Source: Ancylobacter sp. IITR112 (lineage in GTDB: Bacteria > Pseudomonadota > Alphaproteobacteria > Rhizobiales > Xanthobacteraceae). From it: a DNA stretch of 64,000 nucleotides. Every line of letters starts with the position of its first letter. The stretch's first letter is position 1. Of this stretch, positions 5,932-42,144 are shown piece after piece. The stretch covers positions 558,001-622,000 of the forward strand of contig NZ_JBGCUS010000001.1 of the NCBI RefSeq assembly GCF_041415945.1. Direction: 5' to 3'. Position numbers and translations under genes: made by a program. Below the pieces are notes generated by a model. The model saw nothing but the letters and a program-made list of their open reading frames with translations. It searched no databases and was not told the DNA's origin.

Positions 5932-5988
5932 CCGGAAGCTCGCAGGAAGGGGCGAGTATCGCGGGTCGGAAGCGCGGTGCGGATAAAA

Positions 5989-6003
5989 TTCCTAGTTCAG
6001 GAA
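5989..6003. promoter_or_regulatory. TTCCT-N5-AGGAA operator upstream of the gafY-like operon
   Basis: A perfect dyad TTCCT-AGTTC-AGGAA. The same TTCCT-N5-AGGAA architecture occurs at 31457-31471, directly upstream of the GTA promoter. I searched the intergenic regions by eye and saw no further full copy. It is inferred to be a shared site for a GTA regulator (GafY itself or a repressor). Confidence 0.6.
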
Positions 6004-6080: not shown

Positions 6081-6109
6081 TTGTCAATCATTCGTTCCGA
6101 GATTAGGCT
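6081..6109 (+). promoter_or_regulatory. Putative sigma-70 promoter of the gafY-like operon
   Basis: TTGTCA (6081-6086), a 17-base spacer, then TAGGCT (6104-6109), 25 bases before the start codon of the gafY-like gene. The local sequence is AT-rich compared with its surroundings. The implied leader would be only about 15 bases. Confidence 0.5.
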
Positions 6110-6133
6110 TTAATTCCTTGATCGGAGAATCCC

Positions 6134-6511
6134 ATGGCTGACCCTTCCTCCCTTTCCCGCGCGGTGCGGCCGGCGGCCGAGCCGTGTCTGCTCGTTGCCC
6201 GGCTGGCGGCGGATGCCACCGCCATCCCGCTGCCGCACCTGCTGCATCCGCGCCGCCTCGACCGGCGCTCCGCCTCCGCCCGTGCGCTGGCCATGTATCT
6301 CGCCCATGTCGGGCTCGGCCTGCCGATGAGCCGGGTCGCCGCCGGCTTCGGCCGCCACCGCTCCACCGTCGCCCATGCCTGCCGCCGGATCGAGGAGCGG
6401 CGCGAGAGTGCCGGCTGGGACCGCTGGGTCGCCGCGCTGGAAGACGACGCGCGGCGGCTGCTGCCTGCGGCACCCGGCGCCGCTCCGCAGGGAGGAGGCG
6501 CCCATGGCTGA
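6134..6511 (+). CDS. gafY: DnaA domain IV-like DNA-binding protein, GafY-like GTA activator
   Basis: A 125-residue protein whose central part (about 47-91) matches the helix-turn-helix DNA-binding domain of DnaA: ARALAMYLAHVGLGLPMSRV, then GRHRSTVAHACRRIE, the counterpart of the DnaA signature DHTTVLHACRKIE. It has none of the DnaA ATPase domain. In Rhodobacter the GTA activator GafA fuses such a domain to a sigma-like C-terminal domain; in Caulobacter they are separate proteins GafY and GafZ. The next gene encodes the matching second half, overlapping by 8 bases, so this is called GafY by family and context. A GGAG ribosome site precedes the ATG. A host regulator unrelated to the GTA is the main alternative. 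Confidence 0.78.
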   Translation: MADPSSLSRAVRPAAEPCLLVARLAADATAIPLPHLLHPRRLDRRSASARALAMYLAHVGLGLPMSRVAAGFGRHRSTVAHACRRIEERRESAGWDRWVAALEDDARRLLPAAPGAAPQGGGAHG

Positions 6512-7046
6512 GCGCCGTATCGACCATGTGGAGGTGGAGATCGAGGGCGAGCGTCGGATGGTCGCCGTCGATCTCGAGGAAAGCCCGCTCGGCTGGTTGG
6601 CGCGCCGGCGCGGACGTGATGGCCGATGCTTCATCGCGCCGCTGCAGCTTCTGGCGGGGGAACGGCTGCGGGCCGATTTCACCCGCGCCGGCATGGCGCC
6701 GCGCGTCACCGCCAATTGGGAGGCGGCGACACGGACCGACCGGGCCGGCGCCGGCGCCGGGCTCAACGCCTCGGAAGCGATGCTCGCCGCCCGCCAGCGG
6801 CTGGCGCGGGCGATGGACGCGGTGGGGCCGGAATTCGCCGGCCTGCTGCTGGATGTGTGCGGCTTCCTCAAAGGGCTCGAACAGGTGGAGCAGGAGCGCG
6901 GCTGGCCCGCGCGGACCGCCAAGGTGGTGCTGGCGCTGGGGCTCGACCGGCTCGCGCGCCATTACGGGCTGAGTGCGGCCGCGCAGGGCCCGAGCCGCGC
7001 CCGTCTCCGCGCATGGAGGGCGCCGGACAGCGCCGGCGCCGATTAG
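6504..7046 (+). CDS. gafZ: DUF6456 protein, GafZ-like GTA activator/antiterminator
   Basis: A 180-residue protein with the DUF6456 pattern: ESPLGWLARRRGRDG (26-40), GERLRADFTRAGMAPRVTANW (52-72), and the C-terminal GPEFAGLLLDVCGFLKGLE with ERGWPARTAKVVLALGLDRL (108-150). The C-terminal part corresponds to the sigma-factor-like region of Rhodobacter GafA, known to contact RNA polymerase; Caulobacter GafZ is reported to act in antitermination of the GTA operon. The start at 6504 has a GGAGGAG ribosome site 6 bases upstream and overlaps gafY by 8 bases, indicating coupled translation. It ends 2 bases into the convergent sufE gene. Assignment rests on family recognition plus the GTA cluster 24 kb downstream. 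Confidence 0.78.
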   Translation: MAERRIDHVEVEIEGERRMVAVDLEESPLGWLARRRGRDGRCFIAPLQLLAGERLRADFTRAGMAPRVTANWEAATRTDRAGAGAGLNASEAMLAARQRLARAMDAVGPEFAGLLLDVCGFLKGLEQVEQERGWPARTAKVVLALGLDRLARHYGLSAAAQGPSRARLRAWRAPDSAGAD

Positions 7047-24900: not shown

Positions 24901-27900
24901 GCGCCCCGACCGGCGGCATCACCCTGGCGACCGGCATCCTCTCGGTCGATGTCGGTTTCGCCAGCGTCCGCAACGTCACGCTGGTCGGCGGCGGCACCAT
25001 CAATGTCGAGGGCGGGGAGACGTTCACTCTTTCCGGCTCCATCACCGGCACCGGCGACCTCACCCTTACCGGCGGCGGCACGCTGGTGCTGACCGGGAAC
25101 AGCGCCTATTCCGGCAACACGGTCGTTGCGGCCGGGACGCTGCAGGTCGGCGACGGCGGCACCTCGGGCAGCATCTCCGGCAATGTCGTCAATGCCGGCA
25201 CGCTCGTGTTCCAGCGTTCGGACAACATTCTTTATGCCGGCACCGTTTCAGGGTCGGGCACGCTCGAACAGGCTGGCTCCGGCACGCTGGTGCTGACGGG
25301 AACCAACACCTACACCGGCGGCACGCGGATTTCCGGTGGCACATTGATGCTCGGCAATGGCACCGCCACGGGCTCCATAGCCGGCGATGTGATCAATGAC
25401 GGCGACCTGTCGTTCAACCGGACGGAGGCGCTGACTTTCGGCGGGGTCATCTCCGGCAGCGGGCAGGTGTCCCAGTTTGGTTCTGGCACGATCACCCTGA
25501 CGGGGGTCAACACCTATGCCGGCGGGACGCTGATCGGCGCCGGGGCCACGCTGCAGGTGGCCTCCGACGGCAATCTCGGCGCCGCCGCTGGCACCCTCAC
25601 GCTGGCAAATGGCATTCTGGCGCCCACCACCTCCTTCACGAGCGCGCGGACGGTCACGCTCACCGGCACGGGCGGCTTCAGCGTCGGCAGCGGCATCACC
25701 CTCGCGCTCACGGGCAAGGTCGGCGGCGACGGCGGGCTGGTGGTCGCCGGCGGCGGCACGCTGGAACTCGGCGGCATCAATTCCTATGCCGGCGGCACTC
25801 TGGTCTCCGGCGCCACGCTGGCGGTGCATGCCGACGAGAGTCTCGGTGCGTCGGGGACCGGGCTGTCGCTGGACGGGGCGGCGCTGAAGGTGCTGCACAG
25901 CTTCAGCACCGCGCGCGACATCACCCTCAGCGCGGCCGGCGCGGTAATCGAGGTGGCGGAGGACCGCTTCCTTGCCGTCTCCGGCACGGTGACCGGTACG
26001 GGCGTGCTGACCAAGACGGGCGATGGACGGCTCACCCTCACCGGCGCCAATGCTTTTGGCGGACTCATCATCCATGCTGGAACCGTTGTCGGCACCGCGG
26101 GTTCGATCCAGGGCGACGTGCTCGACAATGGCGCCCTCGTCTTCGACCAGCCGGCGGCAGGCACCTTCGCCGGGGACATTGGCGGCACCGGCAGCCTCAG
26201 CGTGAAGGGGGAGGGCACGCTGATTCTCACCGGAAACGCCTTCCACACCGGGGGGACGACAATCGACGGCGGCACGCTGCAGATCGGCGATGGTGGCACC
26301 TCCGGCTGGCTCAGCGGGGCGATCTTCAATAATGGGACGCTCATTTACGATCTCGCCGCGCGCTACACCTTCCCCACCGCGCTCAGCGGGCCGGGGCAGG
26401 TGATTCTGGAAGGCGGCGGCACGGTCGACTTTGCCGGCTCGACCTATGCGGGTCTCGTCCAGGTGAACGATGCGCGCGTTCTCGTGCGGCACGGGACCGT
26501 CTCGGACGCCAATTTCAGCGTCGCGGCTGGGGGCGTGCTCGGCGGCTCCGGCACCGTCGGGATCGTCGACATTCTCGACGGCGGCACCATCTCGCCCGGC
26601 TTCTCGCCGGGAACGCTCAATGTCACCGGCAAGATGGCGCTGGCGGCGGGGTCGACCTATCGGGCGGACGTTACCGCCGGAAGCGGCCATGACCTGATCG
26701 CCGTCACCGGGGCGGTCGGCATCAACGCGACCAGCACGCTCGACGTGCACGCCCAGCGCGGCACCTATGCCGACTATAAGAGCTTCACCATTCTCACCGC
26801 CAGCGACGGCGTGCATGGCGTGTTCGGCACGGTGACGACCAATTTCGCCTTCCTTGATGCACTGGTCGACTACACCGACAACGAGGTCATCCTGAATCTG
26901 GTGCGGCGCGACATTCCCTTCTGGCGCGAGGCTCATAGCTGGAATCAGCTCGCCACCGCGAATGCCGTGGAATCGCTCGGGGCCGGCAACGAGATTTACG
27001 ACGCGGTCGCCTCGCAACTGAAGTCGGAGGCGTTCATCGCCTTCGATGCCCTGTCCGGGGAGATCTACGCCACCACCGGCGCGGTGATCCAGCAGCAGTC
27101 GGTCTTCACCCGCGATGCGGTGGGGGCCCGGTTGCGGCAGGCGGCTTTCGAGGGCGGCGGCGCGCCGCTCGCCTATGCCTCCGATGGCCCGCAGACGGCG
27201 GGCCTCGGTAGCGACAGCGCCGCCACCATGTGGATTCAGGGCTTCGGCGCGCGGGGCGATATCGGCTCCAACGGCAATGCCGCCTCCGCCTCCGACACGA
27301 TCGGCGGCTTTGTCGGCGGCGTCGACGCCGCCCTCGCGGAGACCGCGCGGCTCGGTGTCTATGGCAGCTACAGCAGTTCCTGGTTCAACGTGTCCGGCCG
27401 GGATTCGTCCGGCTCGATGGACAATTACGAACTCGGCCTCTACGGCGCCCTGCAGCAGGGGCCGCTCGCCCTGCGGCTCGGCGCGGGCTATGCGTGGCAC
27501 GACATGTCGCTCGCGCGCACGGTGGCCTTCCCCGGCTATTCCGCCAGCAATAATGGCGACGTGACCACGGGCTCGGCGCAGCTCTTCGGCGAGATCGGCT
27601 ATGACCTGCCCGTCGGCTCGGCCGATCTGGAGCCGTTCCTCGGCCTCGCCTATCTGCATCTCGATGGCTGGAACCTCGTTGAGCGTGGCTCCAACTCGGC
27701 GCTCAGGGTCGACACGGACACGATGGACACGTTCTACACGACGCTCGGCCTGCGCGGCGGGCAGGCGATCGACGTGAACGGCGTGCCGATCACCGCCAGT
27801 TTTACGCTGGGCTGGCAGCACGCCTTCGGCGACACCGTGCCGGCGGCGGTGATGAGCTTCGTCACCGGCTCGGCGCCGTTCTACATCGAGGGCGCGCCGA

Positions 27901-28043
27901 TCGCGCCCGACACCTTCGTGTTTGGCGGCGGGCTGGCCTATGAGCTGAACCCGAATACCCGGCTCGGTCTCCGCTATGACGGGCAGATCGCCAGCAGTGC
28001 GCAGCAGAACGCGATCAGCGGCGGGCTGCAGATTCGCTTCTGA
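18963..28043 (+). CDS. Giant autotransporter adhesin with PATR repeats
   Basis: A 3026-residue type V secreted protein. Residues 1-34 form a signal peptide (ending SPTLAQ). A Gly-rich stretch (about 45-300) carries GGDGGDGG runs. The passenger (about 350-2600) consists of many beta-helix repeats of the autotransporter-associated type, with a recurring GSGTLVLTGTNTYTGGT-like core followed by AGTLQVGDGG. A junction-like segment (about 2520-2590, GGTISPGFSPGTLNVTG) precedes the C-terminal beta-barrel (about 2745-3026), which ends in the outer-membrane signature QIRF. It is predicted to be surface-anchored and to act in adhesion or biofilm; the ligand is unknown. The long repeat array makes copy-number variation likely. 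Confidence 0.93.
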   Translation: MILRPLRSVRSVASLRAALLASVALLAASPTLAQSVNGATNPTGPGGNGLPYAEVPPGGGGGGGGGGVTGGFGAAGNSPEFVTINGDGGVGGFIPGLQGTDGGDGDLGGSGGGGGGGAHGYVGTEAPSGTAIGGQGGDGGDGGEFNTDFEGIAGGGGGPGAGGYGAVIELQGGSLVLLSPVLGGDGGDGGSGASFTWDGGDFPVILEGGAGNGGDGGTGLYLYGSGGSVGIQNEAKGGDGGMGGHGVLSSFGGIGGNGLEIASSAASVIIEANAQITGGDGGISLSGGTSGPGGYGILISGDNNVVTLFGTAAGGIQGGNPAGQSAAIAITGDGNTLVLTNSYVATGGVAVSGGSNALALGGNAGDEGVFDAGSLGSSFYGFTEYAVLGGTTWTLFGESSFAAAWNVEYGTLSIDDALSLGPDGDLLISNSGQLTTTATMLIGQPIELSGGDGPGATFNVESGTVLNLSGQIQGDGNLIVTGGGMLVLSGDNDISGTTTVAQGTLSLLGASPLGAAAGTLILADGATLEFATNGSPSGPVVTGAVTLAGSVTFLSDYGTTGTISGNISDGASSGGFTLSGQGSLLLTGTNSFTGPVTVSAGTLILGSAAALPASAAVTVDESATLQVTSSVAAASLAGAGAVNLGTNTLTVGGGNGSSTFSGNFIGTGGLIKTGAGTFTLAGATGTLGSLTVTGGAGGSLILNAPSVLASSAEVSVTSNSMLQLGASLTIGSLSGDGALDLGSSTLTVDAASDSAFAGILSGSGSLVKSGAGTLTLSGTNASSGPILIQAGALVLAGGAAIGDLTAVTVASGAQLTLNTSETIGSFSGSGAIALGGNTLTFGGDGLATTFSGTISGGSLVDQNVGSTLLTGTYDLTSLTIGGGTLQIGDGVTATSFAGTIVNNGTLVLDPAQSIVMADAISGNGSVSINGQNGVVTFTGAKTYTGDTSIMSGTLNLGSGTSVGSVAGNIVNDGALVFNSSASQTYAGVIMGTGSVSAAGGGLVTLSGTNLYAGGTSVSNGSTISVSSDANLGATSGGVALSNGTLSATASFASARTVTLTGSGTVNVDSGQTLTLSGSLGESGSSQLIKEGLGTLVLTGSNSYSGGTAIYDGMVQVAADANLGAALGGLTLDNGTLATSASFTTERAVTLGGGGGTFSVAAGTVLTLAGTISGAGAVATTGGGELALTGVATYTGGTTVGAATLGLYGGSLATSAVTIADGGTLQGFGSIAGVVTVQSGGTLAGGAVGQPNTQNTALMTGQLSLDSGSGVSLVLGGAGNAGVAEVSGDLALDGTLSVSGEAVHGAGIYRVFTYTGTASGNFASLDLSGLADSASYTGTIETGDSGRVNLLLRDDSAVQVWTTDDGTSFGGSGIWSSTSTTWDLLSSGQTIPWGGETGIFTGTAGTVTVSGAQNFKKLEFVTDGYVLQADGGDATSALNVTDGGVLWVEGHDVTATIGAPITGTGGIEKVGTGTLILTGANTYTGGTKVSGGFLSVASAASLGAAGNVLTLADGGLEATGSFTLASAVVLDGFGTLKPAAGQTLTVSGVISGTGNLRKDGAGTLVLSAANTYVGSTVIVAGTLEAQGGSALPDASAVRIEAAGTLQLDANEGIGSLSGSGAVNLQSNTLSVGYDDTDTVFAGSISGTGGLTKVGAGTLTLTGASTYSGTTTISQGALIIGDGGTNGSIAGNVTTNGTLSFDRSDEILFLGTISGSGGVQQLGSGTLILTGTNTYAGGTLVAEGTLQVNADANLGNSSGAIVIEDGTLQIGTSFTSARVVLLTNGGRIEPVAGTTLTLTGSMVGTGGLTKQGGGTLILAADNAFAGTTTIKAGVLQLGNGGTTGSVVGNIVNDGTLTLNRSTAFTFSNIVTGSGTVIQAGIGAMVVTGGLYASGGLQINQGTTVQMGNGTSWGEITGPIVNNGTLIYNEPGTQAVFSVISGTGQVVQSGPGDLSLAAANTYSGGTFIINGSKLRVLADSALGAPTGGITLATGILSVDVGFASVRNVTLVGGGTINVEGGETFTLSGSITGTGDLTLTGGGTLVLTGNSAYSGNTVVAAGTLQVGDGGTSGSISGNVVNAGTLVFQRSDNILYAGTVSGSGTLEQAGSGTLVLTGTNTYTGGTRISGGTLMLGNGTATGSIAGDVINDGDLSFNRTEALTFGGVISGSGQVSQFGSGTITLTGVNTYAGGTLIGAGATLQVASDGNLGAAAGTLTLANGILAPTTSFTSARTVTLTGTGGFSVGSGITLALTGKVGGDGGLVVAGGGTLELGGINSYAGGTLVSGATLAVHADESLGASGTGLSLDGAALKVLHSFSTARDITLSAAGAVIEVAEDRFLAVSGTVTGTGVLTKTGDGRLTLTGANAFGGLIIHAGTVVGTAGSIQGDVLDNGALVFDQPAAGTFAGDIGGTGSLSVKGEGTLILTGNAFHTGGTTIDGGTLQIGDGGTSGWLSGAIFNNGTLIYDLAARYTFPTALSGPGQVILEGGGTVDFAGSTYAGLVQVNDARVLVRHGTVSDANFSVAAGGVLGGSGTVGIVDILDGGTISPGFSPGTLNVTGKMALAAGSTYRADVTAGSGHDLIAVTGAVGINATSTLDVHAQRGTYADYKSFTILTASDGVHGVFGTVTTNFAFLDALVDYTDNEVILNLVRRDIPFWREAHSWNQLATANAVESLGAGNEIYDAVASQLKSEAFIAFDALSGEIYATTGAVIQQQSVFTRDAVGARLRQAAFEGGGAPLAYASDGPQTAGLGSDSAATMWIQGFGARGDIGSNGNAASASDTIGGFVGGVDAALAETARLGVYGSYSSSWFNVSGRDSSGSMDNYELGLYGALQQGPLALRLGAGYAWHDMSLARTVAFPGYSASNNGDVTTGSAQLFGEIGYDLPVGSADLEPFLGLAYLHLDGWNLVERGSNSALRVDTDTMDTFYTTLGLRGGQAIDVNGVPITASFTLGWQHAFGDTVPAAVMSFVTGSAPFYIEGAPIAPDTFVFGGGLAYELNPNTRLGLRYDGQIASSAQQNAISGGLQIRF

Positions 28044-31361: not shown

Positions 31362-31446
31362 GGGGCGTGGAGCCGGGTTTCGGCCGAAGAGCTTCCCCCG
31401 GGGCCCCGGATCGGTGCGGCGCGGGGCATGACGGCTTCAGGGCATA

Positions 31447-31471
31447 AGGAACATAATTCCTAAACTAGGAA
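31447..31471. promoter_or_regulatory. Phased AGGAA/TTCCT/AGGAA operator at the GTA promoter
   Basis: Three half-sites, AGGAA (31447-31451), TTCCT (31457-31461) and AGGAA (31467-31471), are spaced exactly 10 bases apart, one helical turn. The second and third form the dyad TTCCT-N5-AGGAA, the same architecture as 5989-6003 upstream of the gafY-like operon. It ends 8 bases before the -35 box, a typical activator position. Confidence 0.65.
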
Positions 31472-31479
31472 ATTAATCC

Positions 31480-31508
31480 TTGACAGCGTGACGCTGGCCG
31501 GGTAGCTT
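31480..31508 (+). promoter_or_regulatory. Sigma-70 promoter of the GTA operon
   Basis: A consensus -35 box TTGACA (31480-31485), 17-base spacer and -10 box TAGCTT (31503-31508). The expected transcript start is near 31515, giving an approximately 120-base leader before the first GTA gene. This is the best sigma-70 match I saw in the window. Confidence 0.75.
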
Positions 31509-31539
31509 TCCCTCATGCTCCACAACTGCGTCGGAAGCG

Positions 31540-31566
31540 GCGGGGGTTGATCCCTCCGGCCCCCGC
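31540..31566 (+). promoter_or_regulatory. Leader hairpin of the GTA transcript
   Basis: GCGGGGG (31540-31546) pairs perfectly with CCCCCGC (31560-31566) across a 13-base loop, inside the predicted GTA leader and just before the leader terminator. It could act as a pause or recognition element. Confidence 0.5.
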
Positions 31567-31581
31567 GCGGTGTGGCTGTTC

Positions 31582-31605
31582 AGCCGGCCTTCGGGCCGGC
31601 TTTTT
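31582..31605 (+). terminator. Intrinsic terminator in the GTA leader
   Basis: AGCCGGCC (31582-31589), a TTCG tetraloop, GGCCGGCT (31594-31601) and an immediate run of five T residues (31601-31605). It lies downstream of the GTA promoter and 30 bases before the first GTA start codon, so transcripts from that promoter should stop here unless antitermination occurs. Termination of readthrough from upstream is the alternative role. Confidence 0.85.
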
Positions 31606-31634
31606 CGTTTCCGTGCTCGATCGGCGGAGGTGGC

Positions 31635-32234
31635 ATGTCGGTTCCCGGGCGGTCGGTTTCGCCGGAAGCGCTGGAAGAGGCGCGCCGGCTCTATGAACGC
31701 ACGAATGTGCCGGTGCAGCAGGTGGCGGATCTGCTCGGCATTTCCAAATCCACCTTCAATCTGCGCCGGCAGCGCTGGGGCTGGACGCCGCGCATGGCGC
31801 GCATTCCCGGCGCGCCCGTGTCGCCTGCCGATCCGCTCCCGCAAGATACGCCTTCGCAACACGAGGCGCCGGCCGACCCGCCGCCCGTCCACTTGGCGGG
31901 GGGCGCCGCCACCCCGGCGGAAACCGCGCCCGCCTCGCGCGGGGAACTGATCAACCGGCTGGTGCGGCGGATCGAGCGCGAGATCGCCGCGCTGGAGCGG
32001 CTGGTCGCGCTGGCCGGCCTCGCCGTCGCGGCACGGCCGGAGGCGAGCCAGGCCGACAGCGAACGCGCCGCGCGCACGCTGGCCATTCTGGTGCGCTCGC
32101 TGCGCGAACTCGCGGCACTGGACAGAGAACAGCCCGACGGGAGCGACGATGACGCCGACCGCGACGCCGACGCCTTCCGACGCGAGCTTGGCCGCACGCT
32201 TGAGCGCGTGCTGGCGGGCGGGGAAGCTGCCTGA
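31635..32234 (+). CDS. GTA small terminase-like protein (gp1)
   Basis: A 199-residue protein at the head of the GTA cluster. An N-terminal helix-turn-helix (about 10-45; EEARRLYERTNVPVQQVADL, then GISKSTFNLRRQRWGW) precedes a Pro-rich linker (60-100) and a helical C-terminus (ELINRLVRRIEREIAALERL). Position and architecture match gp1, the small terminase of RcGTA, which binds DNA weakly and starts packaging. The start at 31635 has GGAGG 5 bases upstream; an in-frame start at 31572 would lie inside the terminator. It overlaps the large terminase gene by 86 bases. Confidence 0.82.
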   Translation: MSVPGRSVSPEALEEARRLYERTNVPVQQVADLLGISKSTFNLRRQRWGWTPRMARIPGAPVSPADPLPQDTPSQHEAPADPPPVHLAGGAATPAETAPASRGELINRLVRRIEREIAALERLVALAGLAVAARPEASQADSERAARTLAILVRSLRELAALDREQPDGSDDDADRDADAFRRELGRTLERVLAGGEAA

Positions 32235-33522
32235 GGCGCTGCAAGCGCTCGACGCCCCGACCCTCGACTGGCTGCGCCATCACTGGCCGCTGATCGGCCG
32301 ACCCTCGCAGCGCCCGCCCGACACGGCGCAGGGCGGCGGCGACTGGCTGACCTGGCTGATGCTGGGCGGGCGCGGCGCCGGCAAGACGCGGGCGGGGGCG
32401 GAATGGGTGCGCGCCCTCGTTCACGGCGGCGCCGGGCCAAAGGCCGGGCGGCTCGCCCTGGTGGCGGAAAGCCATGCCGATCTGCGCGATGTGATGGTGG
32501 AGGGCGTTTCCGGCCTTCTCGCCATCCATCCGCGCCAGGAGCGCCCGAGCTGGGAGCCGACGCGCCGGCGCCTCGTCTGGCCGAACGGGGCGGTGGCGCA
32601 GGGCTTTTCCGCCGACGACCCCGAGAGTTTGCGCGGGCCGCAATTCGACGCCGCCTGGTGCGACGAACTGGCGAAATGGCGCTACGCGCAGGCCGCGTTC
32701 GACATGCTGCAATTCGGCCTGCGGCTCGGTGAGCGGCCGCGCCAGATGGTGACGACCACGCCGCGCCCCACCGCGCTGATCCGCGCGCTGCTCGCCGACC
32801 CGCGCACGGCGGTGACGCGCATGGGCACAGCGGAAAACGCCGCGCATCTGGCGCCGCGCTTTCTCGACACCGTGGTCGGCCGTTATGCCGGCACCCGGCT
32901 CGGCCGGCAGGAACTCGGCGGCGAACTGATCGAGGACCGGCCGGACGCGCTGTGGAACCGCGCGGCGCTGGAGGCGGGGCGGCTGGAGGCCGCGCCGGAG
33001 CTGGCGCGTTCGATGGAGCGCATCGTGGTGGCGGTGGACCCGCCGGCCTCCTCCGGCAAGCGGGCGGATGCCTGCGGCATTCTCGCGGCGGGGATCGACG
33101 CGGCGGGCATCGTGCATGTGCTGGCGGATGACAGCGCGCAGGGTCTGACGCCCAATGGCTGGGGAGGGCGCGCCATCGGCCTGTTCCAGAAGCTGGAGGC
33201 CGACCGGGTGGTGGTGGAGGTGAACCAGGGCGGGGAGATGGTGCGGACCATCCTCGCCGGCATCGACCCCACGGTGCCGGTCGCCGAGGTGCGGGCCACG
33301 CGCGGAAAATGGCTGCGCGCCGAGCCGGTGGCCGCGCTCTACGAGCAGGGACGGGTGCGCCATGTCGGCCCGTTCCCGGCGCTGGAAGACGAGATGTGCG
33401 ATTTCGGCCCGGACGGCCTCTCCAATGGCCGCTCGCCCGACCGGCTCGACGCGCTGGTCTGGGCCGTCACCGCGCTGGCGCTCGGCCCCCGCGCCACGGC
33501 GCCCCGGGTGCGGCGGGTGTGA
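32149..33522 (+). CDS. GTA large terminase (gp2)
   Basis: DNA-packaging motor, 457 residues, used to fill GTA heads with host DNA. The ATPase has Walker A GGRGAGKTRAGAEW (about 74-87) and Walker B FDAAWCDE; the nuclease domain has VVAVDPPASSGKRADACG with the metal-binding Asp. The ATG at 32149 has GGGAG 7 bases upstream and lies in a different frame inside the small terminase gene, an 86-base overlap. Family: phage terminase large subunit GpA/gp2-like of RcGTA type. Confidence 0.95.
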   Translation: MTPTATPTPSDASLAARLSACWRAGKLPEALQALDAPTLDWLRHHWPLIGRPSQRPPDTAQGGGDWLTWLMLGGRGAGKTRAGAEWVRALVHGGAGPKAGRLALVAESHADLRDVMVEGVSGLLAIHPRQERPSWEPTRRRLVWPNGAVAQGFSADDPESLRGPQFDAAWCDELAKWRYAQAAFDMLQFGLRLGERPRQMVTTTPRPTALIRALLADPRTAVTRMGTAENAAHLAPRFLDTVVGRYAGTRLGRQELGGELIEDRPDALWNRAALEAGRLEAAPELARSMERIVVAVDPPASSGKRADACGILAAGIDAAGIVHVLADDSAQGLTPNGWGGRAIGLFQKLEADRVVVEVNQGGEMVRTILAGIDPTVPVAEVRATRGKWLRAEPVAALYEQGRVRHVGPFPALEDEMCDFGPDGLSNGRSPDRLDALVWAVTALALGPRATAPRVRRV

Positions 33523-33582
33523 GGGGGCCTTGCCGTGCTCCGCGTCATCCCGGACGGCCTTGTTTTCAACCGGAGCCCCTTC

Positions 33583-34743
33583 ATGAAGCTCTTTCCCTTC
33601 TCGCTGCGTCGCCGCCTCGCGCCGCCGGAGACCAAGGCCTCGCGCACCCAGGCGCTGGTGGCGCTGCTTTCCGGCCATCGGCCGCAATGGACGCCGCGCG
33701 ATTATGGCGCGCTCGCCCGCGAGGGCTATCAGCGCAACGCCATCGCCTATCGCTGCGTGCGGCTGATCGCGCAGGGGGTGGGCGAATTGCGCCCGCTGCT
33801 GAGCGAGGACGGGCGCGAGAGCGCGAGCCATCCGCTGCTCGACCTGCTGGCGCAGCCGAATGCCCGCCTTGCCGGGGCGGGGCTGATGGAAGCGCTCGCC
33901 GCGCATCTGCTGCTGGCCGGCAATGCCTATGTCGAGGCGGTGAGCCTCGGCGGCGCGCCGCGCGAACTGCATGTGCTGCGCCCGGACCGGATGCGCGTGG
34001 TGCCCGGCGCCGATGGCTGGGCGCTGGCCTATGACTACACGGCGGGCGGGCGCTCCGTGCGCTTCGTGCAGGAAGGGGTGCCGCCGCCGATCCTGCATGT
34101 GGCGCTGTTCAACCCGCTCGACGACCATTATGGCGCCCCGCCGCTGGAGGCGGCGCAGATGGCGCTCGACCTGCACAACGCCGCCGGCGCCTGGAACAAG
34201 GCCCTGCTCGACAATGCCGCGCGCCCCTCCGGCGCGCTGATCTATGGCGGGGCGGGCAACCTCTCCGACGAGCAGTTCGACCGGCTGAAGGAGGAGCTGG
34301 AGGCGAATTTCGCCGGCAGCGCCAATGCCGGGCGGCCGCTGCTGCTGGAGGGCGGGCTCGACTGGCGCCCGCTCTCGCTCTCGCCGCATGACATGGATTT
34401 TCTTGAGGCGAAGAACGCCGCCGCGCGCGAGATCGCGCTGGCCTTCGGCGTGCCGCCCATGCTGCTCGGCATCCCCGGCGATGCCACCTATGCCAATTAC
34501 GCCGAAGCGAGCCGCGTGCTGTGGCGCCAGACCATTCTTCCGCTCGGCCGCCGTCTGCTGCATGAGCTGAGCCTCTGGCTCGCCCCCGCCTATGGGCCGG
34601 GCCGGCTGGTGCTGGAGCCGGACCTCGACGCAATCGAGGTGCTGCATGGCGAACGCGAGGCGCTGTGGCGCCGGGTGAACGAGGCGACCTTCCTCACCGA
34701 CGACGAAAAGCGCCAGGCCGTGGGCTATGGGGTGCGGGGGTAG
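33583..34743 (+). CDS. GTA portal protein, HK97 family (gp3)
   Basis: Portal ring subunit at one capsid vertex, 386 residues. Typical HK97 portal segments: YGALAREGYQRNAIAYRCVR, HPLLDLLAQPN, LLLAGNAYVEAV, and AFGVPPMLLGIPGDATYANY near the C-terminus. The start at 33583 has GGAG 7 bases upstream; a GTG at 33535 in the same frame is less likely. 60 bases after the terminase. Confidence 0.95.
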   Translation: MKLFPFSLRRRLAPPETKASRTQALVALLSGHRPQWTPRDYGALAREGYQRNAIAYRCVRLIAQGVGELRPLLSEDGRESASHPLLDLLAQPNARLAGAGLMEALAAHLLLAGNAYVEAVSLGGAPRELHVLRPDRMRVVPGADGWALAYDYTAGGRSVRFVQEGVPPPILHVALFNPLDDHYGAPPLEAAQMALDLHNAAGAWNKALLDNAARPSGALIYGGAGNLSDEQFDRLKEELEANFAGSANAGRPLLLEGGLDWRPLSLSPHDMDFLEAKNAAAREIALAFGVPPMLLGIPGDATYANYAEASRVLWRQTILPLGRRLLHELSLWLAPAYGPGRLVLEPDLDAIEVLHGEREALWRRVNEATFLTDDEKRQAVGYGVRG

Positions 34744-34795
34744 GGGCCTCCGCGCTACCGGGCCGGCCGATGGCCGGCACCTCACATCGCCACCG

Positions 34796-34899
34796 CGTCA
34801 TCCCGGATGCCGCAGGGCGGCGATCCGGGATCGGGGGCTGCCGGGTGCGCCTGCCGTGGCGCGATCCCGGCTCTGCGCTTCGCTTCGGCCGGGATGACG
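34796..34899. repeat. REP-like palindromic element type B1
   Basis: Starts CGTCATCCCGG and ends CCGGGATGACG, with internal GATCCGGGATC and GCGATCCCGGCTCTGCG. It sits between the portal gene and the small membrane protein gene. Related copies are at 36201-36290, 53029-53113 and 57659-57762. Confidence 0.8.
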
Positions 34900-34953
34900 A
34901 CCTTGGGGGTCGCAATAACGACCAGCGCCGCAAACGGGCCGAGGAGGCAACCC

Positions 34954-35142
34954 ATGCAGCCGCTCATGACAGCCTTTGCTGACAAAGCCGACATCGCCCA
35001 TCTCGCTTTGCTGATGTGGGCGCTGGGGGCCTCCGCGCTGGCCGGGCTCGCGCTGCGCGAATTGGGCCGCGCGGTGCGGCGCTTCGATGATTTCGTGCGC
35101 GAGATCGCGCGCTTCAACGCCCTGTTCGGAGACGAGACATGA
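34954..35142 (+). CDS. GTA small membrane protein (gp3.5-like)
   Basis: A 62-residue protein with one membrane segment (about 14-32; ALLMWALGASALAGLALREL) and an amphipathic C-terminus (RRFDDFVREIARFNALFG). GGAGG lies just upstream. A small gene in this position, between portal and protease, is usual in RcGTA-type clusters. Its stop overlaps the next start (ATGA at 35139-35142). Confidence 0.8.
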   Translation: MQPLMTAFADKADIAHLALLMWALGASALAGLALRELGRAVRRFDDFVREIARFNALFGDET

Positions 35143-35321
35143 GTTCGACCCCGCGCATCCGGGCCTTCCTGCCCGGCCGCTTCACCGGGCTTTCCCCGCT
35201 TCTGCCGGCGCCGGACCGGGCCGGGCAGGCGCCGCAGGTGTTTCGCCAGTTCGGCCGCACGCTCGGCCGGCTGGAACGCACGGCCGCGACCCGCCGGCCG
35301 GGCACGGGGGTGGGGGCATGA
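35139..35321 (+). CDS. 60-residue GTA-operon protein of unknown function
   Basis: Basic, Pro/Arg-rich 60-residue frame (RIRAFLPGRFTGLSPLLPAP). It overlaps both neighbours by four bases (ATGA at 35139-35142 and 35318-35321), the pattern of translationally coupled genes, which argues that it is translated. No family recognised. It may serve mainly to couple translation into the protease gene. Confidence 0.6.
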   Translation: MSSTPRIRAFLPGRFTGLSPLLPAPDRAGQAPQVFRQFGRTLGRLERTAATRRPGTGVGA

Positions 35322-35899
35322 GCCTCGACGCGCGCTCCTTCCCCCCGCGCGAGACCAAGGCCGGGGCCGCGCCCTTTGCCGGCGCGCTCGCCAGCATCGC
35401 GCCCGATGGCCGCTTCGAGGGCTATGCGGCGCTGTTCGGCCGGGTCGATCTCGGCCGCGACCTGATCCTGCCCGGCGCCTTCGCCCATTCGCTGGCCGAA
35501 CGCGGCGCCGGCGGCGTGCGGCTGCTGTTCCAACACGATCCGGCCGAGCCGATCGGCACCTGGATCCGGCTCGCGGAGGATTCGGTCGGGCTCTATGTGC
35601 AGGGCCAGCTCACCCTCGATGTCGCCCGCGCCCGCGAGGTGCTGGCGCTGATGCGCGCCGGGGCCATTGACGGGCTCTCCATCGGCTTTCGTGCGGTGGA
35701 GGGCCGCACCGATCCGCGCACGCGGGTGCGACGGCTCTCGCGCATCGACCTGTGGGAGGTGTCGGTCGTCACCTTTCCCATGCAGCCGGATGCCCGCATC
35801 GCGGCGGTGAAGCGGGCGGGCGATCATTTGGCGGGCGCGATCCGCCGTGGCGCCCGCCGCCTGCGCGCCTTGCCCGGGCTGCGGCCGGTTTTGGGGTAG
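35318..35899 (+). CDS. GTA prohead protease, HK97 family (gp4)
   Basis: Serine protease that trims capsid protein during head maturation, peptidase family U35, 193 residues. Family motifs: FEGYAALFGRVDLGRDLILPGAF, catalytic His in LLFQHDPAEPIGTW, catalytic Ser in IDGLSIGFRAV, and SRIDLWEVSVVTFPMQPDA. The start overlaps the preceding stop by four bases. Confidence 0.95.
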   Translation: MSLDARSFPPRETKAGAAPFAGALASIAPDGRFEGYAALFGRVDLGRDLILPGAFAHSLAERGAGGVRLLFQHDPAEPIGTWIRLAEDSVGLYVQGQLTLDVARAREVLALMRAGAIDGLSIGFRAVEGRTDPRTRVRRLSRIDLWEVSVVTFPMQPDARIAAVKRAGDHLAGAIRRGARRLRALPGLRPVLG

Positions 35900-35910
35900 C
35901 GGCCTGCGTG

Positions 35911-36009
35911 CTTCGAGGCCGGCCTGCGGCCGGCACCTCAGCATGACGAGGCTTCTGCATCACGAGTGCCGTCATCCTGAGGTGCGAGCGAAGCGAGCCT
36001 CGAAGGATG
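35911..36009. repeat. REP-like palindromic element type C
   Basis: Left arm GCTTCGAGGC...CCTCAGCATGACG and right arm CGTCATCCTGAGGTGCGAG...GCCTCGAAGG. The CGTCATCCTGAGG-type repeat is common in Hyphomicrobiales genomes. It starts 12 bases after the prohead protease gene. Confidence 0.8.
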
Positions 36010-36029
36010 GTTTGCGCGCGCGATGCCTC

Positions 36030-36119
36030 CCCTCATGGCCGGGCTTGACCCGGCCACCCAGACTTCTGGCCGGCCGCTGCAGGAAAGGCTGGGTCCCCGG
36101 GTCAAGCCCGGGGATGAGG
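36030..36119. repeat. REP-like palindromic element type A4
   Basis: Same structure as the units at 30867-31361: GGCCGGGCTTGACCCGGCC arm and CCCCGGGTCAAGCCCGGGG arm. One of three palindromes filling the 420-base gap between protease and capsid genes. Confidence 0.88.
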
Positions 36120-36200
36120 AAGGCGGAGGGGCCCCCCGGATCGGCGCCGCGCGGCGCGCGGCTTGTCCGGGGCACCGTTTCCCCGCGGCGCCCCCGCCGC

Positions 36201-36290
36201 CGTCACCCGGACGGTCCGCAGGACCGATCCGGGATCGCAACGTCATTTCACGATCCCGGCTCTCCGGCTGCGCCTGCGGCCGGGATGACG
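36201..36290. repeat. REP-like palindromic element type B2
   Basis: CGTCACCCGGACGG at the left and CCGGGATGACG at the right, with internal GATCCGGGATCG. It ends 29 bases before the capsid start codon, so it forms most of the capsid gene leader. Confidence 0.78.
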
Positions 36291-36319
36291 GCGCTCTTCT
36301 TGTAAAGGATACGAGCCAC

Positions 36320-37564
36320 ATGGAACCCAGCATGCCCGCACCCGAATGCAAGTCCGCCGGCCCGGAAGTCTCCGCCGCCTTCGAGGAATTCATGAGCGCC
36401 TTCGAGGCGTTCAAGGACGCCAATGACCAGCGGCTCGGCGCGCTGGAACGGCGCGGCGGCGATGTCGTCGCCGATGACAAGGTGGCGCGCATCAATGCCG
36501 CGCTGGACGCGCAGAAGGCGCTGATCGACGAACTGGTGCTGAAAGCCCGCCGGCCGGCGCTCGGCGGCGGCGATCCCGTCAGCGACCTCGCCGCGCGCGA
36601 GCACAAGGCGGCGTTCGACGCCTATGTCCGCACCGGCGAAGCGGCGGGGCTGAAGCGGCTGGAGGCGAAGGCGCTTTCCGCCGGCGTCGGCGCGGATGGT
36701 GGCTACACCGTGCCCACCGAGACCGAGCGCGAGATCGGCAAGCGGCTTGCCGCGCTGTCGCCGATCCGCGCGCTGGCCGATGTGCGGGTGATTTCCGCCG
36801 GCACCTACAAGAAGCCGTTCATGACCTCCGGCCCGGCGGTGGGCTGGGTGGCGGAAACCGGCGCGCGCGGCCAGACCGCCAGCCCGGTGCTTGATGAGAT
36901 CGCCTTCCCGGCGATGGAACTCTATGCCATGCCGGCGGCGACGCAGACGCTGCTCGACGATTCGGCGGTGAATATCGACGAATGGCTCGCCATCGAGGTG
37001 GAAGCCGCCTTCGCCAGCCAGGAAGGCACGGCGTTCGTCACCGGCGACGGGGTGGGCAAGCCGAAGGGCTTTCTCGCCTATGACACGGTGGCGGACAGCG
37101 CCTGGGCGTGGGGCAAGCTCGGCTTCCTCGCCACCGGCGCGGCGGGCGATTTCCCCGCCGCCAGCCCCTCCGACCCGCTGGTCGACCTCGTCTATGCCGT
37201 GAAAGCCGGCTACCGGCAGAATGGCAGCTTCCTGATGAGCCGGCGCACGCAGGGCGCGGTGCGCAAGCTGAAGGACGAGAACGGCCAGTATCTGTGGGCG
37301 CCGCCCAGCGCGCCGGGCACGCCGCCGAGCCTGATGGGCTTTCCCGTGCACGAGGCGGAGGAGATGCCGGGCATCGGCGCGAACAGCCTCTCCATCGCCT
37401 TCGGCGATTTCCGCCGCGGCTATCTCGTGGTCGACCGCGCCGGGGTGCGGGTGCTGCGCGATCCCTATTCCGCCAAGCCCTATGTGCTGTTCTACACCAC
37501 CAAGCGCGTCGGCGGTGGGGTGCAGGATTTCGACGCCATCAAGCTGCTGAAATTCGCCGCCTGA
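36320..37564 (+). CDS. GTA major capsid protein, HK97 family (gp5)
   Basis: Main head shell protein, 414 residues. An N-terminal helical delta domain (about 10-80; VSAAFEEFMSAFEAFKDAND) is removed by the protease. The HK97-fold core follows, with GGYTVPTETEREIGKRLAAL, FPAMELYAMPAATQTLLDDS, and the C-terminal DRAGVRVLRDPYSAKPYVLF. An AAGGAT ribosome site lies about 10 bases before the ATG at 36320. The delta domain and protease together show that maturation chemistry is retained. Confidence 0.95.
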   Translation: MEPSMPAPECKSAGPEVSAAFEEFMSAFEAFKDANDQRLGALERRGGDVVADDKVARINAALDAQKALIDELVLKARRPALGGGDPVSDLAAREHKAAFDAYVRTGEAAGLKRLEAKALSAGVGADGGYTVPTETEREIGKRLAALSPIRALADVRVISAGTYKKPFMTSGPAVGWVAETGARGQTASPVLDEIAFPAMELYAMPAATQTLLDDSAVNIDEWLAIEVEAAFASQEGTAFVTGDGVGKPKGFLAYDTVADSAWAWGKLGFLATGAAGDFPAASPSDPLVDLVYAVKAGYRQNGSFLMSRRTQGAVRKLKDENGQYLWAPPSAPGTPPSLMGFPVHEAEEMPGIGANSLSIAFGDFRRGYLVVDRAGVRVLRDPYSAKPYVLFYTTKRVGGGVQDFDAIKLLKFAA

Positions 37565-37567
37565 GCC

Positions 37568-37587
37568 GCGTCGCGTAAGCGCGACGC
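37568..37587. other. Hairpin after the capsid gene
   Basis: Perfect 8-bp stem GCGTCGCG/CGCGACGC with a TAAG loop, four bases after the capsid stop codon. It is followed on the plus strand by A residues, not T, so it is not a plus-strand terminator by the usual rule; it may protect the transcript 3' end. Confidence 0.6.
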
Positions 37588-37617
37588 AAAAAAGGGGCGC
37601 CCGGTGAGGGGCGCCCC
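37588..37617 (-). terminator. Intrinsic terminator of the DUF680 gene
   Basis: On the minus strand, an 8-bp stem (37594-37601 with 37610-37617) is followed by six T residues (37588-37593). It ends the inverted DUF680/protease block that interrupts the GTA cluster. Confidence 0.85.
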
Positions 37618-37664
37618 AGAAAGACGGTCAGGTCTCGAACAGAGTCAGATCGTGCAGTGCCGGC

Positions 37665-37892
37665 TCACTTGGTCGAGCGGGCATTCGCCTCGACGGCCTG
37701 GTTGATATAGGCGTCGGAAACGGTCGGGGTGGTCAGGGTGGCGTTGCGCCCTTCCACGACCGGCTGCGCGGTCTGGCTCTGCACCTGCGGGGCCGGGTGG
37801 GTGCCGTAAATGGTGGCGTCACGGCCGGCGGCCTGGGCGCCCGCGGCGCCGAGGGTGGCGAAGGCAACAGCGGCGATGAGGATCTTGTTCAT
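37665..37892 (-). CDS. DUF680 family small exported protein
   Basis: A 75-residue protein with a signal peptide (KILIAAVAFATLGAAGAQA) and a short mature part (RDATIYGTHPAPQVQSQTAQ). DUF680 proteins are small exported proteins of Hyphomicrobiales with unknown function. It is a tandem paralogue of the next gene, about 70% identical by eye. On the strand opposite to the GTA genes. Confidence 0.88.
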   Translation of the reverse strand: MNKILIAAVAFATLGAAGAQAAGRDATIYGTHPAPQVQSQTAQPVVEGRNATLTTPTVSDAYINQAVEANARSTK

Positions 37893-37907
37893 GGTCGATA
37901 CTCCGTG

Positions 37908-37945
37908 AAAAATGGCCGGCGCGCGCTCTCACGGGGGCGCCGGCC
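37908..37945 (-). terminator. Intrinsic terminator of the second DUF680 gene
   Basis: On the minus strand GGCCGGCGC (37937-37945 complement) pairs with 37914-37922, followed by ATTTTT (37908-37913). It lies between the two DUF680 paralogues, which are therefore probably separate transcripts. Confidence 0.75.
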
Positions 37946-37964
37946 GAGGGGGATTGGGCGGGGA

Positions 37965-38192
37965 TCAGTTGGTCGAGCGGGCGTTGGCTTCGACCGTGCG
38001 CTGGATATAGGCGTCGGAGACGGCAGGCGCCGCGACGGCGGCGTTGCGGCCTTCGACGACCTTGTTCTGCGCCTGGCTCTGAACCTGCGGCGCCGGATGG
38101 GTGCCATACACGGTGCTGTCGCGGCCGGCGGCCTGGGCGCCGACGGAGCCGAGCGTGGCGAGGGCGACAGCGGCGATGAGGAGCTTGTTCAT
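37965..38192 (-). CDS. DUF680 family small exported protein, paralogue
   Basis: A 75-residue protein with signal peptide KLLIAAVALATLGSVGAQA and mature RDSTVYGTHPAPQVQSQAQN; nearly collinear with its neighbour, so the pair arose by tandem duplication. The start at 38192 gives the family N-terminus MNKLLIA; a start at 38267 would put 25 unrelated residues before the signal. A 16-bp dyad lies upstream at 38303-38318. Confidence 0.88.
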   Translation of the reverse strand: MNKLLIAAVALATLGSVGAQAAGRDSTVYGTHPAPQVQSQAQNKVVEGRNAAVAAPAVSDAYIQRTVEANARSTN

Positions 38193-38302
38193 TTTCGTCT
38201 TCTCCGAAGAGTGGGTGGGCGGCATGTTTCGGCCGCGCCGTTCATGAGGAGAAGCTAGTTCCGGCATCGGCGCATGGCCAGTTGCGATTAAGCGCCGTCA
38301 GG

Positions 38303-38318
38303 ATTGCGTTTACGCAAT
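38303..38318. promoter_or_regulatory. Palindrome upstream of the DUF680 genes
   Basis: ATTGCGT-TT-ACGCAAT, a perfect dyad of 7-bp arms in the 207-base gap between the DUF680 gene and the trypsin-like protease gene. It is a candidate operator for the minus-strand DUF680 transcript. The gap is AT-richer than its surroundings. Confidence 0.55.
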
Positions 38319-38399
38319 AACAACTGCGTGTTTGGCTCTGGCGGCGCAGCGTCGCGGCACCTATGGCGCAGTCGATAAGATCGCGTACGATTCGAATGC

Positions 38400-39119
38400 C
38401 TAACGCGTCAGCCCGCGCAACGTGGCGTCGATCCAGGCGCGCTGCGGGCCGATCAGCGTCGCGCCGGTGACGCCGCCGCAGCCGCGCGCGCCGCCCGCCG
38501 CCGTCGACCAGCCGATGATGCCGGCGACGACGCCGTCGATCAGCACCGGCCCGCCGCTGTCGCCGGTGCAGCCGCCCTTGGCGGCGCCGTCGGACAGCCG
38601 GACCATGATGCCGCCCGTGGTGCCGATGCTGGGGAGAGTCACCGCGCGCAGCGTGCCGGCGCTCTTGCCGTCGCCGTCCTTGGTCACGCCATAGCCGGCG
38701 ACGGTGAAGGCGGTGCGCTTGGGCGGCAGCGCCACCTGGTCGCTGAGCGCGGCCGGGCGGAAGCTGGCGGGAAGCGTCTCGCTGAGCCGCACCAGAGCGA
38801 GGTCCGGCGTCGGGCGGCGCGTCTCGAACGAGTTCGGATCGAAGGACGGGTGCACCGCCTTGCGGTCGATCGGGATGAGGCGCGGCGTGCCGGCCTCGAA
38901 CACCACCACCGCATAATCCGCCGCCGGCTCGACGCAATGGGCGGCGGTGAGCAGCACGTTTGGCCCCAGCACCACGCCGGTGCAGGTGGCGCCGCGCGTC
39001 GACACGATCATCGCCGTCTCCGCCGCCAGACCCGGCTCCGCCGGCCCGCCGCCGACAATGGCACGGGCGGGGCTGGCGAGGGCGAGGGCGATCAGGGCGG
39101 CGGGCAGCAGCAGGCGCAT
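38400..39119 (-). CDS. Trypsin-like serine protease, exported (S1 family)
   Basis: Exported endoprotease, 239 residues. Signal peptide LLLPAALIALALASPARA, then IVGGGPAEPG as the mature N-terminus. Catalytic His in LTAAHCVE, Asp in PDLALVRL and Ser in GCTGDSGGPVL; the flanking Cys fit trypsin-like disulfides. It is oriented against the GTA genes and separates capsid from connector genes. A host gene or a late addition to the cluster are both possible. Confidence 0.93.
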   Translation of the reverse strand: MRLLLPAALIALALASPARAIVGGGPAEPGLAAETAMIVSTRGATCTGVVLGPNVLLTAAHCVEPAADYAVVVFEAGTPRLIPIDRKAVHPSFDPNSFETRRPTPDLALVRLSETLPASFRPAALSDQVALPPKRTAFTVAGYGVTKDGDGKSAGTLRAVTLPSIGTTGGIMVRLSDGAAKGGCTGDSGGPVLIDGVVAGIIGWSTAAGGARGCGGVTGATLIGPQRAWIDATLRGLTR

Positions 39120-39203
39120 CGGCGGGTTCCGAACAGGGACGCGCCGTTGTGGCGGCGCCCGGCCGCAAGGTCAATCGCCGGAACTCATTCACAGAGAGGC
39201 ACC

Positions 39204-39770: not shown

Positions 39771-40087
39771 GCGGCATCGGGGCCCTGCGGCACCGTCTGG
39801 TGCATGAGACGCCGGTGGAGATGCCGGACGGCATGGGCGGCGTCACCCGCAGCTTCCTCGCCGTCGACAGCCTGTGGGCGGCGATCGCGACGCGCGGCGC
39901 GGCGGCGGAGATCGCCGACCGTCCCGGCGCCGTGCTCGCCCATAGCGTCACCGTGCGCGCGCCCGCCACGGTGCAGCCGGGCGACCGGCTGCGGCTCGGC
40001 GCCCGGCGCTTTCTCGTCGAGGCGGTGAGCGACCCGGACGGGCGCGGGCGCTTCCTTGTTTGCGACTGCCGGGAGGAGACGCCATGA
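39767..40087 (+). CDS. GTA head-tail adaptor (gp7-like)
   Basis: A 106-residue head closure protein: IGALRHRLVHETPVEMPDG, then TRSFLAVDSLWAAI and the C-terminal RLRLGARRFLVEAVSDPDGR. It starts with GTG at 39767, overlapping the connector stop by four bases (GTGA), and ends overlapping the next mini-gene (ATGA). Confidence 0.9.
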   Translation: MSGIGALRHRLVHETPVEMPDGMGGVTRSFLAVDSLWAAIATRGAAAEIADRPGAVLAHSVTVRAPATVQPGDRLRLGARRFLVEAVSDPDGRGRFLVCDCREETP

Positions 40088-41344: not shown

Positions 41345-41383
41345 AGGCGGCGCTGTGACGGGACGGCGCGGCGAGGAACAGCG

Positions 41384-41474: not shown

Positions 41475-41517
41475 GTGGGTTTTAGCGTCAGCTTCAGCCC
41501 TCGGAGAGGAGCACATC

Positions 41518-41883: not shown

Positions 41884-41963
41884 GCGGGCCGGCTCAGCTC
41901 GTCGGGGAGGGCGTCCCGCCCCTTCCCGGGGAGGGCGTCCCGCCCTTCCCCTGGGAGGAGGCG

Positions 41964-42122: not shown

Positions 42123-42144
42123 GGGGGCCGTCTTGCCGCCCATG

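Follow-up and report, generated by a model that had tools for sequence, protein, structure and literature searches.

A GTA main promoter that is probably a pause-and-load antitermination switch under a repressor

The main promoter of a GTA cluster in an Ancylobacter-like genome is probably a pause-and-load antitermination switch held under a repressor. Within the 64,000 nt that we analyzed (the window: G000:C1:558001-622000, part of a 5.0-Mb genome), the account with most support combines a repressed sigma-70 promoter, independent of any activator, with an antitermination step in which a loader would board a paused RNA polymerase. Antitermination of the Q or AlpA type, and the role of GafZ in GTAs, were already known; what is new is a putative pause element, a perfect -35 abutted by a likely repressor site, and a terminator lying before the first gene. 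If true, this account shows how gene-transfer particles may be held off and turned on.

Domain matches of the gene products show a typical GTA cluster beginning at 31635, with terminase, portal, prohead protease, HK97 capsid, connector, tail tube, DUF2460, hub, NlpC/P60, and GTA_TIM proteins. The argument concerns its first genes and the DNA just before them, all on the plus strand:

31447..31465, plus strand: extra half-sites further upstream (GGAA-N5-TTCC, 31448-31460), which some genus leaders have and others do not
31466..31479, plus strand: conserved operator TAGGAAATTAATCC (GGAA-N4-NTCC) abutting the -35, a predicted RogA operator from its conservation and the published motif
31480..31485, plus strand: -35 TTGACA, in 28/28 genus and 48/50 family leaders
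31484..31496, plus strand: palindrome CAGCG-TGA-CGCTG, predicted GafZ loading site (ZBE-like), from its conservation
31503..31508, plus strand: -10 TAGCTT, 17-nt spacer from the -35; A-11 and T-7 invariant in 49/49 distinct family leaders
31514..31519, plus strand: -10-like element CATGCT at -1..+5, predicted sigma-dependent pause element, from CAnnnT conservation and the register test
31515, plus strand: predicted transcription start (+1 = A), placed by its spacing to the -10
31527..31530, plus strand: TGCG at +13..+16, possible elemental-pause sequence (TGnG in 28/28 genus and 44/50 family leaders)
31540..31566, plus strand: leader hairpin, 10 pairs in the fold, probably incidental
31582..31605, plus strand: leader intrinsic terminator, stem AGCCGGCC-TTCG-GGCCGGCT at 31582-31601 and T at 31601-31605
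31635..32234, plus strand: first GTA gene (ATG at 31635), an HTH protein in the small-terminase position (terS), its HTH matches weak and below Pfam cut-offs
32149..33522, plus strand: GTA large terminase (Terminase_6N and 6C)

Other features of the region are noted for completeness. After the capsid gene, the stretch 37594-39119 holds a trypsin-like gene on the minus strand (38400-39119) and a small ORF (37965-38267), both antisense within the cluster, and a 9-pair minus-strand terminator (37594-37617). Upstream of the cluster, a 3026-residue ORF (18963-28043) looks autotransporter-like by eye.

We compared 28 leaders from the genus (Ancylobacter-like: the best-matching named relatives of the GafZ-like protein are mostly Ancylobacter), 63 GTA loci from other genera of the family, and 68 from other families. 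Loci outside the genus are the DNA upstream of large-terminase genes: within the family, 63 of 99 such places were examined (99 is a hand count), and in other families 68 of 80 were used, 11 not having been fetched and one stretch being too short. Family-leader counts refer to the 50 loci with a promoter score above 5, from 22 other genera (counted by hand from labels), and counts of invariant columns use distinct sequences (26 in the genus, 49 in the family). Homologues of the first GTA gene were found in 28/30 genus genomes, and those of gafZ and rogA in the same 28; none of the three was found in G022 and G026 among the 30 genus genomes searched. By eye, the leader in some other genera (L275, L139, L273, and L265) is followed by an ORF with VETPTEAR...PS(V/I)LALL in place of the HTH gene.

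A first, sequence-only reading had placed four elements at 31447-31634 (half-sites, promoter, leader hairpin, and terminator), and all four are there when the letters are read directly. Its term "consensus promoter" is right for the -35 and wrong for the -10, which matches only 3/6 letters of TATAAT; an automated promoter scan did not list the window's promoter. Comparison across genus and family showed a nearly invariant block from -50 to about +25 around 31515, composed of a half-site pair abutting the -35, the perfect TTGACA, the palindrome, the -10, and a second -10-like element. It is kept in gap-free alignment in 28/28 genus leaders, and these upstream regions read TAGGA-N7-CC-TTGACA-17-TAGnTT-N5-CATRCTCCA, save for TGGGA in one genome and CA for CC in one. 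Mean information per 10-base window in the genus leaders is 0.85-1.87 bits from -50 to +30 and 0.11-0.26 bits from -61 to -260, with 0.08 for unrelated letters. We then scored the other loci with a weight matrix of the genus promoter from -49 to -7, with the letters after the -10 outside it: 50 of the 63 other-genus loci of the family exceeded a score of 5, as did 5 of the 68 from other families, and the best of 131 shuffled controls reached -1.5. Searching named genomes for the promoter pattern gave 32 matches against about 30 estimated by chance, none of them bearing a name of the window's family; records near the window's genome may lie outside that search.

The second -10-like element follows at -1..+5. 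CAnnnT is found there in all 78 leaders that have the promoter (28/28 genus, 50/50 family), and among the 49 distinct family leaders C-1, A+1, T+5, C+6, T+13, and G+14 are invariant, A+10 varies once, and +2, +3, and +4 are variable. Like the true -10, the hexamer is fixed at A2 and T6 and free in between; it is located 11 bp below the -10. When the two hexamers were set 2 to 11 nt apart, the 5-nt spacer (11 bp below the -10) was matched by 49/63 family loci and 8/68 other-family loci, and each of the nine other spacings by one locus at most; shuffles gave 0 to 0.2. The eight positive other-family loci belong to families f2, f105, and f37, and the pattern was not found in the other 60 of the 68. 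Earlier and weaker tests at class level had given 5/68 against 1.35 by shuffling, and 9/68 against 4.25. A related CATCTCCAGAA block occurs in four f11 loci, though not at the same register. The f37 promoters differ in the rest of their sequence (e.g. TTGAC...CATTATGGGTACATAAT): loci L171, L205, L208, L165, and L210 show near-repeats in the spacer, such as TGTGC...TGTGCA, and, 11 bp below the -10, CATAAT, CATAGT, or CATTCT; the register is shared, the sequence is not.

This position has published precedents. The Pseudomonas promoter PalpB has a -10-like CACGAT at -1..+5, in which changing A+1 or T+5 harms AlpA antitermination (PMC9371919); in E. coli, distal sigma-dependent pauses go with a -10-like element placed some 11 bp below the -10 (PMC7876045); and Q proteins require a -10-like sequence together with a site between the -35 and -10 (PMC6606751). 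By analogy, the conserved CAnnnT register is, on its letters, that of the sigma-dependent pause used by AlpA, and we regard a pause-and-load step at this promoter as quite likely. The block may contain other signals besides the -10-like element, as C+6, T+13, and G+14 show no more variation than A+1 and T+5; TGnG at +13..+16 stands where, presumably, an elemental pause is expected from its consensus. A search of the open-licence literature found nothing in print on pausing at GTA promoters.

The palindrome between the -35 and the -10 has perfect arms in 26/28 genus and 37/50 family leaders; across the family columns the arms hardly vary, in contrast to the three letters at the centre. Of the 30 genus genomes, 23 carry exact TTGACAGCRYRRCGCTG a single time, and its coordinates always put it just before the GTA; G022 and G026, the genus genomes with no terS match, have none. 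In G329, which belongs to another family, both arms are altered together (CACCG-CAA-CGGTG), as expected of a site that would be bound with two-fold symmetry. In Caulobacter, GafZ enrichment and GTA production both depend on a near-palindrome between the -35 and -10, and GafZ, which travels with NusA, NusE, and NusG, enables RNA polymerase to get past terminators (PMC11150451). From the like placement of the two sites, GafZ is predicted to load at the palindrome here. The window encodes the likely protein partners:

6134..6511, plus strand: gafY-like gene (DnaA-type HTH; PF08299)
6504..7046, plus strand: gafZ-like gene (DUF6456; PF20057, E 2e-47), predicted antiterminator

We take GafZ to be a DUF6456 protein, and both genes are named here from their domains. 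Their products match one and the same phage family, a 316-residue PHROG, near its two ends, as expected if they were a split GafA. A model of GafZ built from 40 of the 120 homologues listed resembles sigma region 4 and 21Q among the best Foldseek chains listed; AlpA and lambda Q are absent from those chains, a list uninformative about either, and the GafZ profile had no sequence match to PDB chains. By coordinates, gafYZ and the GTA cluster share a contig in 27/28 genus genomes, roughly 13-50 kb apart, and lie on different contigs in G005.

Upstream of the -35 we read half-sites AGGAA (31447-31451), TTCCT (31457-31461), and AGGAA (31467-31471), and an imperfect fourth, ATCCT (31476-31480), that runs into the -35. 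GGAA-ATTA-ATCC at 31468-31479 matches 7/8 letters of the RogA motif GGAA-N4-TTCC, and GGAW5NNCC is present in 27/28 genus and 41/50 family leaders. In Caulobacter, RogA is a 213-residue LexA-like repressor that binds two GGAA-N4-TTCC repeats in the gafYZ core promoter region (PMC9632790, in the sections available). Exact TTCCT-N5-AGGAA occurs twice in the 64 kb, at the GTA leader and before gafY; allowing one mismatch raises the count to 3, where 0.46 would be expected and 1/100 shuffles reaches 3. Searched through the strain's own genome, the pattern TAGGAWWWWWNNCC gave 7 matches against 1 in the reversed control: the GTA copy, the gafY copy, one about 30 bp before a gene for a 208-residue HTH and peptidase-S24 (rogA-like) protein, and four overlapping ORFs, one of which (L288) is a YkuD gene. 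No regulon of accessory GTA genes emerged from this search, in which the GTA, gafY, and rogA-like sites were followed. The features outside the leader are the following:

5981..5994, minus strand: operator copy upstream of gafY, by sequence likeness
6081-6109, plus strand: likely gafY promoter, TTGTCA-17-TAGGCT, hexamers assigned by eye
6105..6119, plus strand: second operator-like copy AGGCTTTAATTCCTT, by sequence likeness, overlapping the likely gafY -10
C1:4365957-4366580 of the genome (L291:845-1471), minus strand: rogA-like gene (HTH and S24), its product the LexA-like homologue P0121

The name of the rogA-like gene rests on length, domains, and operator. A GTA-operator matrix exceeded the 99% point of its null in 25/28 rogA and 25/28 gafY upstream regions of the genus. 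Single sites are weak, because single null samples reach above the median rogA score (16.6 vs 14.6), and the weight lies in the number of sites; the strict GGAA-TTCC match score before rogA did not separate from the null (1/28 at 8.5 or more). A motif of the same shape stands before rogA in 20/23 other-genus regions (1.1% in shuffles), with a pattern written after the genus sites had been seen; the 23 are the regions with loci returned, from 139 matching genomes (7 in the genus). RogA is not GTA-specific in the family, since its homologues are found in 139/149 family genomes and the GTA terminase, at cut-off, in 89/149.

The likeness to the RogA site, and its recurrence before the rogA-like gene and gafY, point to a repressor of the RogA type as the probable owner of the operator, and we hold this with good confidence. 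Other XRE-type repressors, such as CdxB, which acts on gafYZ in Caulobacter (available part of PMC13236601), may also own it. The sequence-only reading had given the half-sites to GafY and GafZ, and GafY was likewise our first candidate as owner; we gave it up for RogA after the genome operator search, the rogA-like gene, and the published motif. In that alternative, GafY would bind the upstream half-sites as an activator and contact sigma beside the -35, and GafZ would antiterminate as in Caulobacter. Caulobacter GafY binds the gafYZ and GTA promoters and contacts sigma domains 3-4, and the YBE mutation there hit ACTATG (available sections of PMC11150451); the same kind of site is found here in both the gafYZ and GTA promoter regions, and its minus strand reads GGACTATTTTCC in 15/28 genus leaders. 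However, the site fits GGAA-N4-TTCC and recurs before the rogA-like gene, where it spans TATAAT in 20/28 genus genomes. A perfect -35, moreover, should work with no activator, since a near-consensus -35 freed the Caulobacter promoter from GafYZ, with about sixfold weaker activity (PMC11150451, same sections). We therefore consider ownership by GafY unlikely; RogA fits the operator better, and GafZ is better placed at the palindrome.

The RogA-like proteins of the genus keep the Ser of GDSM in 24/28 cases and the Lys in 26/28; four genus genomes encode a RogA-like protein that has no GDSM Ser. In the window strain's protein the Ser and Lys are 37 residues apart, the spacing of LexA. Given this LexA-like spacing of the retained residues, the genus protein might, in contrast to Caulobacter RogA, undergo cleavage in the SOS response.

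Between promoter and first gene, a strict intrinsic terminator is present in 23/28 genus leaders (2/140 shuffles), at distances of +76 to +155. The sequence-only reading would have been refuted by a leader terminator absent from all related GTA clusters, which is not the case. Other genera of the family show the strict form in 5/50 leaders (2/250 shuffles), and at class level 3/5 leaders have it. A relaxed test gave 26/28 in the genus (22/84 shuffles) and 19/50 in the family (15/150 shuffles); weaker forms are seen in G006 and G020 by that test and in G007 by eye. With 23/28 strict terminators in the genus against 5/50 in the family, the terminator before the first gene appears mainly confined to the genus and the loading module wider, so the loader elsewhere would act on other terminators or in another way. 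Within the genus, we think it likely that the leader terminator is the stop that GafZ would control.

A terminator that merely insulates, or is a chance repeat, with the GTA controlled at initiation only, would agree with the 45/50 other-genus leaders that have no strict terminator. For an insulator, however, a place between the promoter and the first gene is the wrong one to block upstream transcription, and chance sits poorly with a terminator kept in 23/28 genus leaders and with its being the only one listed with more than 5 pairs on the plus strand of 31400-51300, a stretch whose scan gave overall fewer terminators than shuffles (5 vs 7.9). We judge this alternative quite unlikely, and keep the terminator as the candidate GafZ-controlled stop. 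The leader hairpin, tried as a conserved RNA element, was rejected: across the genus its stability does not exceed that of shuffles (mean z -0.64, 4/28 below -2; -0.9 in the window). The whole 120-nt leader of the window folds at z -2.36.

Two other readings of the block after the start were dropped. A leaderless short peptide (ATG CTC CAC ...; MLHNCVGSGGG-stop in the window, by eye) controlling the terminator by attenuation would suit the ATG at +1 in 26/28 genus leaders, but this ATG is poorly kept in the family (30/50, against 50/50 for CAnnnT), and the idea is very improbable. Equally improbable is a boxA of the rrn or N type read in RNA by NusB-NusE, despite the TGCTC...AAC of the block, which we take to resemble the E. 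coli rrn boxA, and the NusA, NusE, and NusG that accompany GafZ in Caulobacter (PMC11150451, sections available): the strain's own rrn leader has a different boxA-like AGCTTTTTGACA (found by eye), and the AAC positions vary among family leaders.

From the elements, their invariance and registers, the shared operator, and the gafY-, gafZ-, and rogA-like genes, we infer a course of binding, pausing, termination, and read-through events. A LexA-like repressor of the RogA type would sit on GGAA-N4-NTCC beside the -35 and keep the promoter off, as it would gafYZ and rogA itself. Once the repressor is gone, sigma-70 RNA polymerase would initiate near 31515 from the consensus -35, with no far-upstream activator. 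Sigma region 2 would then hold CATGCT (-1..+5), and the polymerase would pause with about 15 nt of RNA, to be boarded by palindrome-bound GafZ, perhaps together with GafY. Polymerase not boarded by GafZ would stop near 31605 and leave a leader RNA about 90 nt long, whereas boarded polymerase would read through into the GTA genes. The layout likened at the outset to lambda pR'/tR' is supported, and strengthened by the conserved -10-like element and the palindrome, neither of which had been named earlier.

GafZ antiterminates in Caulobacter, and the conserved -10-like element may bear on how it boards RNA polymerase; with the element in 78 leaders at a register proven for AlpA, a test of the boarding step comes down to two single-base changes. 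The element also ties GTAs to the control of phage late genes, the operator at the main promoter suggests a direct repressor input that is absent from the Caulobacter model, and the conserved block offers a sequence signature for locating GTA main promoters. It is conceivable, if somewhat doubtful, that alphaproteobacterial GTAs ancestrally turn on their structural genes by sigma-dependent promoter-proximal pausing and a DUF6456 antiterminator with a 21Q-like fold. The phage from which they descend would have used this switch for its late genes, it would have survived domestication, and the host's LexA-like RogA would have come to sit right on it.

The closest known system is PgtaT of Caulobacter crescentus with GafY, GafZ, and IHF (Tran and Le 2024, PMC11150451, in the sections available), which has in common with the window the gafY and gafZ(-like) genes, a palindrome between the -35 and -10, and antitermination proposed through the cluster. 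PgtaT has a degenerate -35, AATCAT, whereas the window has the perfect TTGACA. Its GafY site at -123..-113 and its IHF site face a region, from -61 to -260, in which the genus leaders conserve nothing at a fixed distance (sites at varying distance are possible). The Caulobacter terminator consists of three 150-bp repeats after the first gene, whereas the one in the window is simple and precedes it; no 150-bp repeat array like terGTA was found in 31400-45000, nor direct repeats of at least 40 bases in 31400-37700. The -10-like element is present in the window, while the words "pause" and "pausing" do not occur in PMC11150451. A search of 385 genomes for the Caulobacter promoter by its published letters gave one match only, in G495, about 23 kb from that genome's terminase and by eye in coding DNA.

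AlpA at PalpB of Pseudomonas aeruginosa (PMC9371919, in part) likewise has a loader site between the -35 and -10 and an intrinsic terminator downstream. Its CACGAT, with the A and T needed, occupies the position of CATGCT in the window; the loader sites differ (GGGACG against a 13-bp palindrome), and the likeness of GafZ to AlpA is one of layout. Among lambdoid Q proteins 21Q comes nearest, with a site that is a direct repeat where the window has a palindrome (PMC6606751, in part); the similarity in fold between the GafZ model and 21Q is moderate and is shared with sigma region 4. GafA of Rhodobacter capsulatus is one fused protein that contacts the omega subunit, and its C-terminal, GafZ-like part binds an RcGTA promoter fragment with the -35, -10, and start; the available sections of PMC6363796 and PMC9638019 describe neither a pause element nor antitermination for it.

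Caulobacter RogA (Gozzi 2022, PMC9632790, in the sections available) is likewise a LexA-like protein of about 210 residues with HTH and S24 domains, its operator being GGAA-N4-TTCC (GGAA-N4-ATCC in the window) and its target gafYZ. It lacks key cleavage residues, whereas the genus proteins mostly keep the Ser and Lys. In those same sections it is seen only at gafYZ and CCNA_02002, so direct control of the GTA main promoter by RogA would be a difference: unlike in Caulobacter, the operator here also abuts that promoter and precedes the rogA-like gene.
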